A DNA stretch of 64,000 nucleotides, from contig JACZXB010000004.1 of the NCBI GenBank assembly GCA_022571845.1, positions 1-64,000 of the forward strand. Direction: 5' to 3'. Made by a program: the position numbers and the translations under genes. The stretch comes from Candidatus Zixiibacteriota bacterium. Its GTDB lineage: Bacteria > Zixibacteria > MSB-5A5 > GN15 > FEB-12. The notes beneath the pieces were generated by a model, which was given only the letters and a program-made list of their open reading frames with translations, searched no databases and was not told where the DNA came from. Positions within the stretch are counted from its first letter, which is position 1, and each line of letters begins with the position of its first letter. Below are positions 5,788 to 13,423 of the stretch, piece after piece.

Positions 5788-6876
5788 TCAATCGCTCATA
5801 TCAAATATTGCAAGTAATGAATCAATTGTTGACAACTCATGTTGGAGTAAAATCGGATCTATTTCCTGGTTTCTAGCTACTTGAACTGAAATCAGCTTTG
5901 AAGAATCGTTTTTACAGCCGATCATAAAGTATATACGTCTTGCAAGTCGATTCTGCTGATGGCACATAATAGCGAACCCCGAGATTTCACGATCATCTAT
6001 CAGGCAACCAAAGTCGTTTTCTACCAATTGATAATATAATATTTCTTTTTGCGCATCAGCGTAAAATGGAAAACTCGCCCATTCCAAATTCAACGGTAAT
6101 TTGTAAGCAGTTATCCATTGACCAGAGTGGTAAGTTGTCATGCACGCATTGGAACCGTAACAGTTTTTACCTGAGGAGATTTCTAGCAATCTTTCCCTTT
6201 TCCTTGCATAACCAATACCCACCCGATCTCTAAATAACAAAATGTCTGAAATCGGATACAGATTACTCAAGAAAATCTCGAGAACATCAACTAAGTGTGG
6301 ATGAACAAAATTGAATGTCGAAACATACACTTCATTCGGATTTGCAGGCCAGCCAGTTACTGTGACCATTGTATCTCCGTTATCGGAACGAATCTCAAAA
6401 ATGTATTTGCCAGCATTCCAATATAAGTATTCAGAACTCACGGCAGCGTTGCTACGGAATATTCTGGTAGTTTTGTGATTTTCTATGTGAGAAACGACTT
6501 CTTTCAATCGAAGAGCATTTTCGATTATTTCTTCGCTATTAACAAGCGAATCGTTTCTAATCTTCATTGCAACACCATAGTCAAACGCTACCCCGTTTGG
6601 CGAGACTTCACCGGGAACGCGAAACCTGACAACAGCAGTGGCCACGCTGTTCTGTCCATATTCATTTACAGAAACAGATTGAAATTCCCACTTTTCATAT
6701 AGTTCGCCCAAGATGTTGTGATTTAAAGCTATGGTTTCAATTTGCTCTGGGTTTTCTACCTTTGTCATAATATAAGACACTTCTGATGGAGTCGCTGAAA
6801 TTGATACGAACTGCAACATAGAAACCATGAAAATGAAAATCGAAAACTTATTCATGATATTCTTCTTGCCTGACAC
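5788..6876 (-). CDS. Secreted protein of unknown function
   Basis: A 362-residue protein with a signal peptide (MNKFSIFIFMVSMLQFVSISA). No family is recognised. The mature part is a mixed alpha/beta sequence with a few cysteines (C238 and C244, in GKNCYGSNACM). Two starts compete: GTG at 6876 preceded by GAGGGA at good spacing, and ATG at 6855, which gives a cleaner signal peptide but has only a weak RBS. The gene stands alone between the damaged TPR gene and the aminotransferase pair. Confidence 0.75.
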   Translation of the reverse strand: MSGKKNIMNKFSIFIFMVSMLQFVSISATPSEVSYIMTKVENPEQIETIALNHNILGELYEKWEFQSVSVNEYGQNSVATAVVRFRVPGEVSPNGVAFDYGVAMKIRNDSLVNSEEIIENALRLKEVVSHIENHKTTRIFRSNAAVSSEYLYWNAGKYIFEIRSDNGDTMVTVTGWPANPNEVYVSTFNFVHPHLVDVLEIFLSNLYPISDILLFRDRVGIGYARKRERLLEISSGKNCYGSNACMTTYHSGQWITAYKLPLNLEWASFPFYADAQKEILYYQLVENDFGCLIDDREISGFAIMCHQQNRLARRIYFMIGCKNDSSKLISVQVARNQEIDPILLQHELSTIDSLLAIFDMSD

Positions 6877-8787: not shown

Positions 8788-8960
8788 TTAAAATATTATC
8801 TTTTGTACTTAACACAGAATCGGAAGCCTGTCAATCTGATTCACTATCAGTAACAAAAATTAGGCAGCCGGCTCTGCTAATCCGTTTAAGATTTAAGCAA
8901 AACCGAGGCCGTCAAAAAAGACTTTGGCTGGCCGGCATATTTGACTACTTTGGGAGCCTT

Positions 8961-11339
8961 ATGAAAAACAGACTGAACAGATTTTGTAACTATGTGCAAT
9001 TTAGGCGATTAGCCGCTCAAATAGCTGCCCTGCTTATTATGGCAGGTTTGGCAGCCAGTTCAAATGCTACTGAACCGGCCAGACCAATCCGGCTGGGCTA
9101 TTTCGAGGGGGGGCAATATATAATCCACAACCGGCTCAGAGATGAATACCTGCAGCAGCTGGAGGCAGTCCTGCCCGAAGATATTAAAGTTGTTTTTGCT
9201 CCCGAAGGCTACCGCAGCGCCGAATGGAACCGGGATAATTCCAAGCGGATGGCTAAAGAACTTAGCGAGCTGGCTACTATCGATATTATCATTGCCGTCG
9301 GTCCCTGGGTGGTCAATGATTTGATTGAGGCCGGCTGCAAAAAACCGATTGTAGCCATGCATCAGTTTGCTCCGGACTCTGAAGGTCTGCTGGATGGTTC
9401 AGGCAAACCTGTAGTAGAAAATCTGACAGTCCATCTAATCCCTGACAAAATAGAAAATGATCTGGCCGTTCTTAATCTATTCAGACCGATTAAGAAACTT
9501 GGTTTCCTGCATTTTCCATCGGGAGATGAATCGGCAGCTGTACTGGCGCGGGTTGAAGCAATTGGAAAGAAATATGGTTTCGAAGTTGTCACGGCCGAGG
9601 GCTACGACAATAAAGGCACTTTTGCATATTTCAAAGCGTATAAGAATTTAGACAGATCTGTTGACGCCATATATCTGGCCCCCTTGTGGGGGCTGGATGT
9701 TACCATGGTCAATCAATTCTTTCTATCGCTGAAAAACGACCGCATTCCGGCTATTGTCAGCGAGGGACGATCGCTGGTAGAGCGCGGCGCGCTGGCTACA
9801 AACTCTGCCTACAACGTTTTTTCCGAAGCTCGCTTTAACGCTTACAAAACTTTTAAGATAATCACCGGCACCAAGCCAGCCGAACTGGCTTTTGAGTTCG
9901 TTGGCGGCAACTCGGTGGCAGTTAATGAAAAGACAGCAAAAATCTGCCGGGTCCCTTTGTCGCGCAGAATCTATAATGAAGCCGATGTTATCCTTGCCGG
10001 AGCTTCCGAAGACGCACCGCTGCTGACAGTAGATGATGCCATACTTCGAGCAATTTCTCTTAATCCCGGCTTTTTGGCAATGTATGACGCACTTGAAGCA
10101 GCGGGACACGCCGCGGGTCAGGCCTACGCCGCATACCTGCCGCAGCTTAGTCTCAGCGCCAGGCTCGGCTACCGCGACGACAACACCGTCAATAACTCCC
10201 GCGATGAATTTGAGCAGGAATATTTCGCAACCAGCCTTGATTTGCATCAGAAACTTTTTTCGCTTGGGACAATTCGTTCAATCAAGGTAGCCTTGAAAGA
10301 AAAAGAACTGGCGCAGGTTAATCTGGAAAGTGCCAGGATAGAACTGGAGCGGGCAGTAGAGCGGATGTTTTTAAATTATGTCAGAGCAGAAAAGTTAGTC
10401 GATATATTTTCACGTATCAGACAGTTAGTTGACCGTAATATTGAGGTCAGCGGTACCCGCCAGATCATAGAAGATGCCGACGAGTACGAGCTCTGGCGCT
10501 GGCAGCAGGAACGTTACAAAATAAGTCAAAAGATTATTGAGTCTAAGGCTAATCTTGAAATCGCCCGGATACTTTTGAATACCGTCCTCAATTACCCCAA
10601 TGAAACTGAATATATTATCTATTCTGAAGCGTTTTCCGAAGAAGCAACTTCGTTGTTTTATGACCGCGTCTACGCTAAGCTGACACAGCCCGGGCAGGCT
10701 TCGAGAATTGCGCAGCTGATGGTAAATTTTGCACTGGACCATAACAGCGGAATCCGGCAATCGGAGCAGAAGCTTGCTATAATAAACGGACTCCGCTCAC
10801 AAAATAAGTCGCGTTATTTGCCATCGCTTGAGTTCCGGGCAAGTTACAGATATGCTGATGAATTAAGAGACACGCCGCCATCGTTCAAAGAAGAAAAAAG
10901 CAGCTGGACTCTGGGGACTGTTTTGAAATTCCCTCTTTTTTTGGGAACAGACAGAATCAAAGAGGGACGGAAGCTGAACGCAAATTTCAGCAGGCTTGAA
11001 TTTGAAACTGATAACCAGCGACTAAAAGTAACCGGCCAAATATTTTCGAAATTTCAAAAAATGACAGCCAGCCTTGATATGCTGCCGTCGGTCTACCGCC
11101 GGCTCGATCTGGCACGGCTTAACCTTGAAACGGTTATAGAGCGTTATGATGCAGGTAAACTGAATATCATTAATCTTCTTGATGCTCAGGACGAGCTGAC
11201 TGACGCTGAGCTTAACGAAATTATGGTTAGAATAAGCTTCTATGAGACTATGTCGGATTTAAGCGGACTTCTCGGTTTCTCGGCCAGCAAAACCGGCACA
11301 GAATTTACAAACAGGATAGAGCAATTCTTTAATCAATAA
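8961..11339 (+). CDS. Periplasmic substrate-binding domain fused to TolC-like outer membrane protein
   Basis: This 792-residue exported protein has two normally separate parts. After a signal peptide (~13-38), residues ~40-345 look like an ABC-type substrate-binding protein of the ABC_sub_bind/YtfQ-like class: alternating alpha/beta, DIIIAVGPWVVNDLIEAG, KKLGFLHFPSGDE, VDAIYLAPLWG. Residues ~355-785 are a TolC/OEP outer-membrane efflux domain: LTVDDAILRAISLNPGFLAMYDAL at its start, AYLPQLSLSARLGY, long coiled-coil helices, and ERYDAGKLNIINLLDAQDELTDAE near the end. The reading frame is continuous and the junction (near ADVILAGAS) lies inside it. It probably acts in the outer membrane or periplasm. 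No inner-membrane pump or adaptor gene is adjacent. Confidence 0.85.
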   Translation: MKNRLNRFCNYVQFRRLAAQIAALLIMAGLAASSNATEPARPIRLGYFEGGQYIIHNRLRDEYLQQLEAVLPEDIKVVFAPEGYRSAEWNRDNSKRMAKELSELATIDIIIAVGPWVVNDLIEAGCKKPIVAMHQFAPDSEGLLDGSGKPVVENLTVHLIPDKIENDLAVLNLFRPIKKLGFLHFPSGDESAAVLARVEAIGKKYGFEVVTAEGYDNKGTFAYFKAYKNLDRSVDAIYLAPLWGLDVTMVNQFFLSLKNDRIPAIVSEGRSLVERGALATNSAYNVFSEARFNAYKTFKIITGTKPAELAFEFVGGNSVAVNEKTAKICRVPLSRRIYNEADVILAGASEDAPLLTVDDAILRAISLNPGFLAMYDALEAAGHAAGQAYAAYLPQLSLSARLGYRDDNTVNNSRDEFEQEYFATSLDLHQKLFSLGTIRSIKVALKEKELAQVNLESARIELERAVERMFLNYVRAEKLVDIFSRIRQLVDRNIEVSGTRQIIEDADEYELWRWQQERYKISQKIIESKANLEIARILLNTVLNYPNETEYIIYSEAFSEEATSLFYDRVYAKLTQPGQASRIAQLMVNFALDHNSGIRQSEQKLAIINGLRSQNKSRYLPSLEFRASYRYADELRDTPPSFKEEKSSWTLGTVLKFPLFLGTDRIKEGRKLNANFSRLEFETDNQRLKVTGQIFSKFQKMTASLDMLPSVYRRLDLARLNLETVIERYDAGKLNIINLLDAQDELTDAELNEIMVRISFYETMSDLSGLLGFSASKTGTEFTNRIEQFFNQ

Positions 11340-11376: not shown

Positions 11377-12687
11377 ATGATGACGGACCAAACGGAAATT
11401 CATCGGGTAGTAATTATAGGTGGCGGCTTTGGCGGTCTTAATGCTGCTAAAGCCTTGAGAAATGCTCCGGTTAAGATAACGCTCATAGATAAACGCAATC
11501 TTCATTTGTTTCAGCCTCTTCTGTATCAAGTTGCCACGGGCGGGCTGTCACCCGCTGACATTGCCTCACCAATTAGAGCGATTCTTCGCAAGAACAAGAA
11601 CACTCGTACTATTATGGCTGAGGTCAAAGATATTGATATTGAATCACAGCAAGTATTCATGGATGATGACCGGGTTGCTGACTATGACAGCCTGATAGTC
11701 GCGGCCGGTTCACGGCACCACTATTTTGGCCATGACGACTGGAGCAGATATGCTCCCGGTTTGAAAACTATTGAAGAAGCTCTGGAGATCAGGCGGCGTA
11801 TTTTGTCAGCCTTTGAAAAGGCAGAATTGACCGAAGATGATACTACCCGCAGACAGCTTCTGACATTCGTCATAGTAGGCGGCGGACCAACCGGGGTTGA
11901 ACTGGCCGGTACCGTCGGCGAAATCACCCGCTACACCATCGGCCGCGAGTACAGTTCTTTTGACCTCAAGACAGCCAGAATAATTCTGGTAGAAGGACAG
12001 ACCAGAATTTTGCCTGCCTTTGATCAAAAACTTTCTGCAAAAGCAACTAAGTCTCTTGAGGAACTCGGTGTTGAAGTATTATCAGGTTCAATGGTTACTT
12101 CAATCGACCGAAATTCAATAACTCTTGTTATAAACGACGGAATAGAAACAATCAAAACAGATACGGTTCTGTGGGCGGCAGGCGTCAAGGCTTCATCATT
12201 AGGCAGAATTATTGCAAAGAATAATTTGAGCTGGCTCGATAGCAGCGAGAGAGTAATTGTAGACAGCAGAATGTCTCTGCCTGGTCATGATAATGTTTTT
12301 GTAATTGGCGATTTAGCCAACTACAGCCACCAAACAGGCGAACCTCTGCCCGGTCTGGCTCCAGTAGCCATTCAACAGGGGAAATATGTGGCGAAACTGA
12401 TAAAAGCTAAGCTAACGAACAAAACCGTCCGGCCGTTCAGATATGTTGATAAGGGAAATTTAGCCACCATCGGCCGCTCCCGAGCGGTTGGTCAAATAGG
12501 CAATCTAAAAGTCAGCGGGCTTTTCGCCTGGCTGGTCTGGTTGTTTGTTCATTTGATGTATCTGGTTGGTTTTGAAAACAGACTTTTGGTTTTCATTCAA
12601 TGGGCCTGGAATTATTTCACCTGGAACCGCAGCGCCCGGATTATTACCAATGTCACTACTATACCTGACGAAAAACCAAAAATTTAG
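11377..12687 (+). CDS. ndh: Type II NADH:quinone oxidoreductase
   Basis: A 436-residue flavoprotein. The FAD dinucleotide fold VVIIGGGFGGLNAAK is at the N-terminus. HLFQPLLYQVATGGLSP is a typical NDH-2 signature. The NADH-binding fold FVIVGGGPTGVELAG lies at ~165-180, followed by WAAGVKAS, VFVIGDLA and APVAIQQGKYVA. The C-terminal hydrophobic helix (~385-415) would anchor it to the inner membrane. It would pass electrons from NADH to quinone without pumping protons. It is convergent with the next gene, with a gap of only 10 nt. The start has no strong RBS, and the second ATG (11380) is equally possible. Confidence 0.93.
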   Translation: MMTDQTEIHRVVIIGGGFGGLNAAKALRNAPVKITLIDKRNLHLFQPLLYQVATGGLSPADIASPIRAILRKNKNTRTIMAEVKDIDIESQQVFMDDDRVADYDSLIVAAGSRHHYFGHDDWSRYAPGLKTIEEALEIRRRILSAFEKAELTEDDTTRRQLLTFVIVGGGPTGVELAGTVGEITRYTIGREYSSFDLKTARIILVEGQTRILPAFDQKLSAKATKSLEELGVEVLSGSMVTSIDRNSITLVINDGIETIKTDTVLWAAGVKASSLGRIIAKNNLSWLDSSERVIVDSRMSLPGHDNVFVIGDLANYSHQTGEPLPGLAPVAIQQGKYVAKLIKAKLTNKTVRPFRYVDKGNLATIGRSRAVGQIGNLKVSGLFAWLVWLFVHLMYLVGFENRLLVFIQWAWNYFTWNRSARIITNVTTIPDEKPKI

Positions 12688-12697
12688 CTGGCAGCTT

Positions 12698-13423
12698 TCA
12701 GCTAAATAAAAACCCATAAAGTTTTATTATCAGTACTAACGATATCAGGGATGTTGTGGTCCACCTCATAAGTTTGAAGATTGGTTTATCATTAAAAGTC
12801 GGGATAGTATTTTCTTTAGCTAAATGTCTTAAAACTCGATAATAGACGAAAATAGAAGCAGCTATCAAAACTATCGTAATTGCTTCTGTGATTTCAATAC
12901 CGAATTCAAACCGGAGTACCGAGCAGGCCAGCAGCACAGATATGGCGGCAAAGGCATATTTGCCGGTGAGACTGGGCGGCACCAGAATTTTTTGTCCTCT
13001 GAGTAAAATCCCAGCAACTATTAATATTAAAAGGTCCCGTCCGAGAATTATGACTGCCAGCAAAATTGGGAAATCCCGATAAATTATGAGAAGAATTACC
13101 AGAGCTCCTGCAAAAACTTTGTCAGCAAAAGGGTCGAGAATCATCCCCAGCCGGCTTTCTTCGTTGCGCAGTCTGGCAATGAAGCCGTCAAGCCCATCTG
13201 AAAGAGCGGCCAGTAACACGATGGAAAATGCTATCAGTGCCGGTTCCCTGCCTGGCTCAGACAGAAAATACCATAATAGAGGAATAACCATAATGCGAAA
13301 GAGACTCATTAAGTTGGAAGCCTTTAATAATTCCCTTAGCTGCACGATTCTGCTCTGACTATTCCGACTATAATGACAATGCTCATATTTTAATCTAAGC
13401 CCTGTTGATGCTATTCTCAACAA
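12698..13423 (-). CDS. CDP-alcohol phosphatidyltransferase (PgsA-like)
   Basis: An integral membrane enzyme that transfers a phosphatidyl group from CDP-diacylglycerol to an alcohol, most like phosphatidylglycerophosphate synthase. The signature is complete: D76-x2-D79-G80-x2-A83-R84-x8-G93-x3-D97-x3-D101. About six membrane segments are predicted. The 241-residue call has ~30 extra N-terminal residues compared with PgsA proteins, which usually start just before the NLxxxxRI segment (here NLMSLFRIM). An in-frame GTG at 13345 is a plausible true start. Confidence 0.88.
   Translation of the reverse strand: MLRIASTGLRLKYEHCHYSRNSQSRIVQLRELLKASNLMSLFRIMVIPLLWYFLSEPGREPALIAFSIVLLAALSDGLDGFIARLRNEESRLGMILDPFADKVFAGALVILLIIYRDFPILLAVIILGRDLLILIVAGILLRGQKILVPPSLTGKYAFAAISVLLACSVLRFEFGIEITEAITIVLIAASIFVYYRVLRHLAKENTIPTFNDKPIFKLMRWTTTSLISLVLIIKLYGFLFS

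Follow-up and report, generated by a model that had tools for sequence, protein, structure and literature searches.

What does a substrate-binding domain do on a TolC-type outer membrane channel? The question is raised by a gene in the window, as we call the whole stretch of 64,000 nucleotides of Candidatus Zixiibacteriota DNA that was analysed here: positions 8961..11339 of the plus strand encode, from an ATG start, one protein of 792 amino acids that consists of a signal segment, a substrate-binding domain (SBD), a linker and a TolC-type outer membrane factor, all described below with plus-strand coordinates. The motif GGGAG (8952..8956), Shine-Dalgarno-like by eye, lies 4 bases ahead of the ATG; a scan of the window for promoters and terminators gave matches only modestly above shuffled sequences, and PADLOC gave no match. 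Residues 1-39 (8961..9077) are hydrophobic and resemble a signal peptide, judged by eye and with a simple pattern. A simple lipobox pattern has no match in the window protein and only two, neither convincing, among 40 fusion N-termini. The SBD is a class I domain and spans residues 40-345 (9078..9995), the TolC-type half spans residues 357-792 (10029..11336), both according to Pfam and profile alignments, and the linker between the halves consists of residues 346-356 (9996..10028, from the alignment).

Both halves can be assigned to a family. Residues 84-342 match PF04392 (ABC_sub_bind) with 35.2 bits at a Pfam cut-off of 25.9, and the TolC half is complete, with two OEP repeats (PF02321; window ~10032-10592 and 10719-11276) that score 117 bits at a cut-off of 22. 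A profile built from 40 fusions was compared with solved structures: the SBD half matched 3lkv (1.2e-21), 6hni (1.2e-18) and 3lft (1.3e-16) and aligns along most of 3lkv, the TolC half matched 5bun (9e-40) and 1ek9 (3.9e-39) and aligns with residues 3-178 and 209-407 of the latter. NCBIfam models stayed below cut-off for both halves: the TrpX equivalog scored 32.3 bits against a cut-off of 390, and the TolC-family models were far below their cut-offs. AlphaFold reached a mean pLDDT of 32 for the full-length fusion (from an alignment of 4 near-identical rows) and of 46 for the SBD alone (5 rows); Foldseek searches with the latter model returned 3lft, 6hni and 6hnj on top, with E-values of ~7e-6 to 8e-6 and a TM score of only ~0.27. 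A preliminary description of this DNA had proposed a continuous frame with two complete halves, limited to residues 40-345 and 355-785. Both the limits and the completeness hold: there is a single open reading frame of 792 amino acids with neither stop nor frameshift, and PF04392 and the two OEP repeats all score above cut-off.

An assembly or sequencing artefact that joined two genes is extremely improbable. Among the 132 genomes searched in Candidatus Zixiibacteriota, 72 match the fusion at E<=1e-15, most of them over nearly the full length and with no internal stop, and this recurrence rules out that a stop or frameshift close to residue 350 was overlooked. The matches are distributed over the window's own family (f1, 51/54 genomes), f3 (3/4), f4 (13/15) and five other members of the class, one of which (G119) has a stand-alone OEP protein; f2 has none (0/7). 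Outside the phylum, the same layout is present on complete plasmids of Sulfuricurvum kujiense and Cetobacterium somerae, which belong to two other phyla; the viral contigs that were scanned contained no relatives of the fusion. Comparison with three Candidatus Zixiibacteriota relatives of 89-94% identity yielded low dN/dS values for the SBD (0.11-0.13) and the TolC half (0.10-0.16), and both halves are thus under purifying selection. The PF04392 domain and the full TolC-type outer membrane factor in one gene are a real, ancient and conserved fusion. The pairing is indeed unusual, as had been noted; the accompanying statement on a lack of known precedent does not hold as it stands, as the proposed search for other fusions recovered it across Zixibacteria and on the Sulfuricurvum and Cetobacterium plasmids, there within operons of export pumps. 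One locus differs: in G085 (L078:8811-11149, plus strand), which has a receiver gene upstream, the fusion frame is broken in two within the TolC half, at about residue 443-462 of the window protein (P0001), and is either a pseudogene or the result of a sequence error.

The TolC half shares sequence features with the outer membrane factors (TC 1.B.17): its two OEP repeats run along 1ek9 and both barrel hairpins can be aligned. TolC builds a 12-strand barrel from two beta-hairpins per protomer, and the strand limits are likewise taken from the TolC structure. By alignment, the first hairpin corresponds to residues 394-433 (10140..10259) and the second to residues 621-662 (10821..10946). Unlike TolC, the fusion has a binding domain of 306 residues ahead of its first helix. 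In TolC, both chain ends are located at the equatorial belt of the periplasmic tunnel, and the SBD should therefore hang beside the tunnel rather than at its periplasmic mouth, where the preliminary description had placed it as a sensor.

Two relatives have no barrel. The proteins of G030 (L055:8587-10443, minus strand, 619 amino acids) and G087 (L076:8281-10128, minus strand, 616 amino acids) are in frame and have an intact SBD, but miss the regions equivalent to residues 378-460 and ~599-688 of P0001, that is, both barrel hairpins with their flanks, save a few aligned residues at ~661-664. The two proteins come from two species of one genus and are only 43.7% identical, indicating that the barrel-less state is old and has been kept. 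At E<=1e-5 neither genome has a second fusion copy; another member of that genus, G086, carries the full form, and no further barrel-less example was found among 129 genomes. An SBD with TolC-derived helices can thus be retained without a pore.

To which system does the fusion belong? The neighbourhoods of ten distant fusions were opened: Zixibacteria L057, L058 and L071-L075, Sulfuricurvum L066 and Cetobacterium L069 and L070 (the Cetobacterium matches H10 and H12 are outside this set). All ten are linked to a pump: in nine, an adaptor and next an RND permease come after the fusion (for L071 the adaptor was identified from its translation by eye), and in one it is followed by HlyD, RbbA and an ABC-2 permease. 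The latter is L066 on Sulfuricurvum plasmid pSULKU01, with the gene row TetR, fusion, HlyD, RbbA and ABC-2 permease, which reads as an RbbA-type exporter with an SBD-bearing outer membrane duct; the fusion protein, SULKU_RS13415, is ~20% identical to the window protein. The Cetobacterium somerae proteins VSU16_RS11725 and MKD34_RS13590 (L069/L070) are encoded in plasmid RND efflux operons as a 'TolC family protein' of ~725 amino acids with an extra, divergent N-terminal half. The plasmid proteins thus share the two-part layout with the window protein but, unlike it, stand in operons with HlyD, RbbA and ABC-2 permease or with adaptor and RND permease. The N-terminal halves of the Cetobacterium proteins are shortened and divergent and have no PF04392 match, and neither has the divergent N-terminal half of L073, the N-terminus of which is cut by a contig end; their assignment as putative SBDs rests on the alignment to the Sulfuricurvum protein.

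The window's own gene belongs to a second, orphan branch. No adaptor and no RND permease was found near any of 44 orphan loci, searched over up to 9 kb with four adaptor and two RND queries at E<=1e-8; at 25 of these loci the flanking sequence reaches at least 4 kb in both directions, and divergent genes could be missed by these queries. Two loci were left out of the 44: L024, which is the same locus as L026, and L053 (G056), which has no fusion frame when frames with long runs of X are discarded. Quick trees were built for each half from 23 orphan, 9 pump-linked and 18-20 free rows (long-branch warnings apply). In both trees, each of the three groups is separated from the rest by one branch, which allows a single fusion event.

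The two branches also differ in what is conserved. In pairwise comparisons of 35 orphan fusions, the SBD exceeds the TolC half in identity in 593 of 595 cases, with means of 38.6% and 25.7% (the set of 40 without the near copies L026 and L003 and the pump-linked L057, L058 and L066). In nine of the ten pump-linked fusions (without L074, which is cut by a contig end) it is the other way round: the SBD is ahead in only 3 of 36 pairs, with means of 25.6% versus 31.8%, and in 3 of 21 pairs when Cetobacterium is excluded. Adaptors dock at the periplasmic tips of TolC-type ducts. In the pump-linked branch, conservation at the two tips (0.637/0.684) exceeds the overall value of 0.511; in the orphan branch the tips fall below average in f1 (0.418/0.427 versus an average of 0.456, 23 sequences) and f4 (0.481/0.489 versus 0.585, 9 sequences), and only tip 1 is above average in f3 (3 sequences). 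With no adaptor found nearby and no raised tip conservation in f1 and f4, the orphan branch differs in these respects from the TolC family, although its adaptor may be encoded at a distance.

We give about an even chance to the reading that the window protein is a ligand-recognising outer membrane duct whose ancestor was the exit of a tripartite exporter and which is here uncoupled from a dedicated pump. The fusion would trimerise like TolC, with three SBDs around the periplasmic tunnel, and each SBD may close on a small periplasmic ligand and thereby load the duct or alter its opening. An RND or ABC exporter of the pump-linked branch would thereby gain an exit duct that is substrate-selective. 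In the orphan branch, dedicated adaptor and pump appear to be gone and selection seems strongest on ligand recognition, so that the protein is most likely an outer membrane conduit or receptor that would open or signal depending on the bound ligand. Gated export and uptake, the two functions first proposed, are both possible, and the pump operons of the sister branch favour an export ancestry.

The main rival, which we consider rather less probable, is a conventional shared exit duct: docked on distantly encoded adaptors, as E. coli TolC is, the orphan fusion would use its SBD only to capture or screen the exported substrate. A missing adjacent adaptor does not prove a missing adaptor, because the tolC gene of E. 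coli also lies apart from the genes of its pumps, and the sister branch is embedded in RND and ABC pump operons. Of the tip residues of the pump-linked branch, the arginine is kept in 22 and the tryptophan in 16 of 23 f1 sequences, which would fit residual docking. Against a shared duct, tip conservation in orphan f1 and f4 does not exceed that of the remaining TolC half, and the barrel-less relatives retain the SBD. The genome of the window even has a candidate partner: an RND-adaptor pair (C5:77496-80651; L120:7494-11783, minus strand) with no OEP among the matches and open reading frames around it. The three other OEP proteins of the genome adjoin adaptors. As dedicated partner this RND is plausible in the own genome, but its orthologue, present in 25 of 129 genomes, does not track the fusion: no f4 genome has it, many f1 genomes with the fusion lack it, and in G037 and G043 an OEP match follows right behind it.

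If the orphan duct recognises a ligand, which one? The solved PF04392 relatives of the SBD bind phenylalanine, tryptophan or tyrosine, as far as described in the available parts of two reports (PMC6816091, PMC9382623). The fusion SBD is of the same family as TrpX, CD0873 and VC_1101 (3lft, 6hni and 3lkv) and matches their profile over nearly the full length; it differs from them in being covalently joined to a channel, with no importer genes beside it: nine neighbouring window proteins were scanned, and none is an importer permease or ATPase. It also differs in the pocket. The S-T-P of CD0873 aligns with a GPW motif (residues 114-116, 9300..9308, plus strand) that is invariant in all 35 orphan fusions, and the T-D-N stretch is replaced by L-W-G; both loops of CD0873 presumably touch the ligand. 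Aromatic-amino-acid binders carry serine or threonine where the GPW of the orphan branch is invariant. Identical in 35/35 orphan fusions are G114, P115, W116, N154, L155, Y238, I300 and G303; W243 is present in 27/35 and E268 in 28/35. E268 aligns with Glu-263 of CD0873, which holds the tyrosine hydroxyl according to the part of PMC6816091 that was available. We infer that the pocket of the orphan branch has been kept but remodelled, and the ligand is therefore unlikely to be a free aromatic amino acid that is held in the way of TrpX or CD0873.

The changes at positions that coordinate aromatic amino acids could also mean that the SBD has lost ligand binding and now serves as a structural collar, and the shortened Cetobacterium N-terminal halves with no PF04392 match would agree with this. 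We consider such a collar very unlikely: the changed positions are invariant or nearly so in the orphan branch, and the SBD is its best conserved part.

A conduit that depends on a ligand could open, or it could signal. Directly upstream of the fusion and on the same strand, 16 of the 44 orphan loci have a single-domain CheY-like receiver (at L037, which is not counted among the 16, the receiver match is inside an extended open reading frame start). Both acidic residues, the phospho-acceptor aspartate and the lysine are present in 14 of the 16, and the alignments of the other two (L035, L061) are incomplete. These receivers are the basis for a two-component receptor, in which the SBD would sense the ligand, the TolC half would mainly be an outer membrane anchor and the upstream receiver would be the output. 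The barrel-less forms, which keep SBD and receiver, are in line with this, and so is a free PF04392 protein of the own genome (G000:C8:86661-87383): it is of the same SBD family as the fusion but unfused, and its gene forms a row with those for a histidine kinase (559 amino acids) and a receiver (127 amino acids; L102:6581-9627, minus strand), likely a ligand-sensing two-component set. The same set is found in G001 (L119). We nevertheless regard this receptor as unlikely: a non-systematic look identified no histidine kinase beside the fusions, no receiver was found directly upstream in 28 of the 44 loci, the window and f4 among them, receiver genes are abundant in general, and the barrel is retained everywhere seen save in two species.

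We put forward a more far-reaching reading as tentative. In this Zixibacteria branch the fusion may have become an adaptor-independent, ligand-operated outer membrane receptor or valve, with three SBDs that control the TolC conduit directly or report to a two-component pathway. Genus g29 would then have lost the barrel, with the SBD and the TolC-derived helical hairpins persisting as a soluble periplasmic receptor: an export duct turned into a sensor.

TolC ducts are viewed as passive exits, with specificity in the inner-membrane pump. A duct with its own binding domain would move specificity or gating to the outer membrane, and the two branches described here differ in exactly those features that would separate a selective pump exit from a ligand-operated receptor. 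The pump-linked form is carried by named species with sequenced plasmids, Sulfuricurvum kujiense and Cetobacterium somerae. Both parts of the fusion are known families; no description of an SBD-TolC fusion was found in the open-access literature. Fusions of outer membrane pore proteins are rare and none with TolC is named in the accessible part of PMC4827864, and the accessible part of PMC8277102 mentions no such fusion of an outer membrane factor. Public annotation is misleading as it labels the proteins by one half: the Sulfuricurvum and Cetobacterium genes are called 'ABC transporter substrate binding protein' or 'TolC family protein'.

The fusion has other recurrent neighbours too. In the window, a divergent carbon-nitrogen hydrolase (PF00795; 8107..8787, minus strand) and a class I/II aminotransferase (PF00155; 6932..8110, minus strand) precede it; homologues are found near 15 and 7 of the 44 orphan loci, respectively. 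An NDH-2-type pyridine nucleotide oxidoreductase starts 38 bases downstream (11377..12687, plus strand; homologues near 5/44 loci), followed by a convergent CDP-alcohol phosphatidyltransferase (12698..13423, minus strand) with homologues near 28/44. A divergent ABC exporter pair is near 13 of the 44 orphan loci and a membrane protein near nine, in f4. At 5788-6876 (minus strand), the window encodes a protein of 362 amino acids without Pfam or PADLOC match, which has a relative at the same place in G001.
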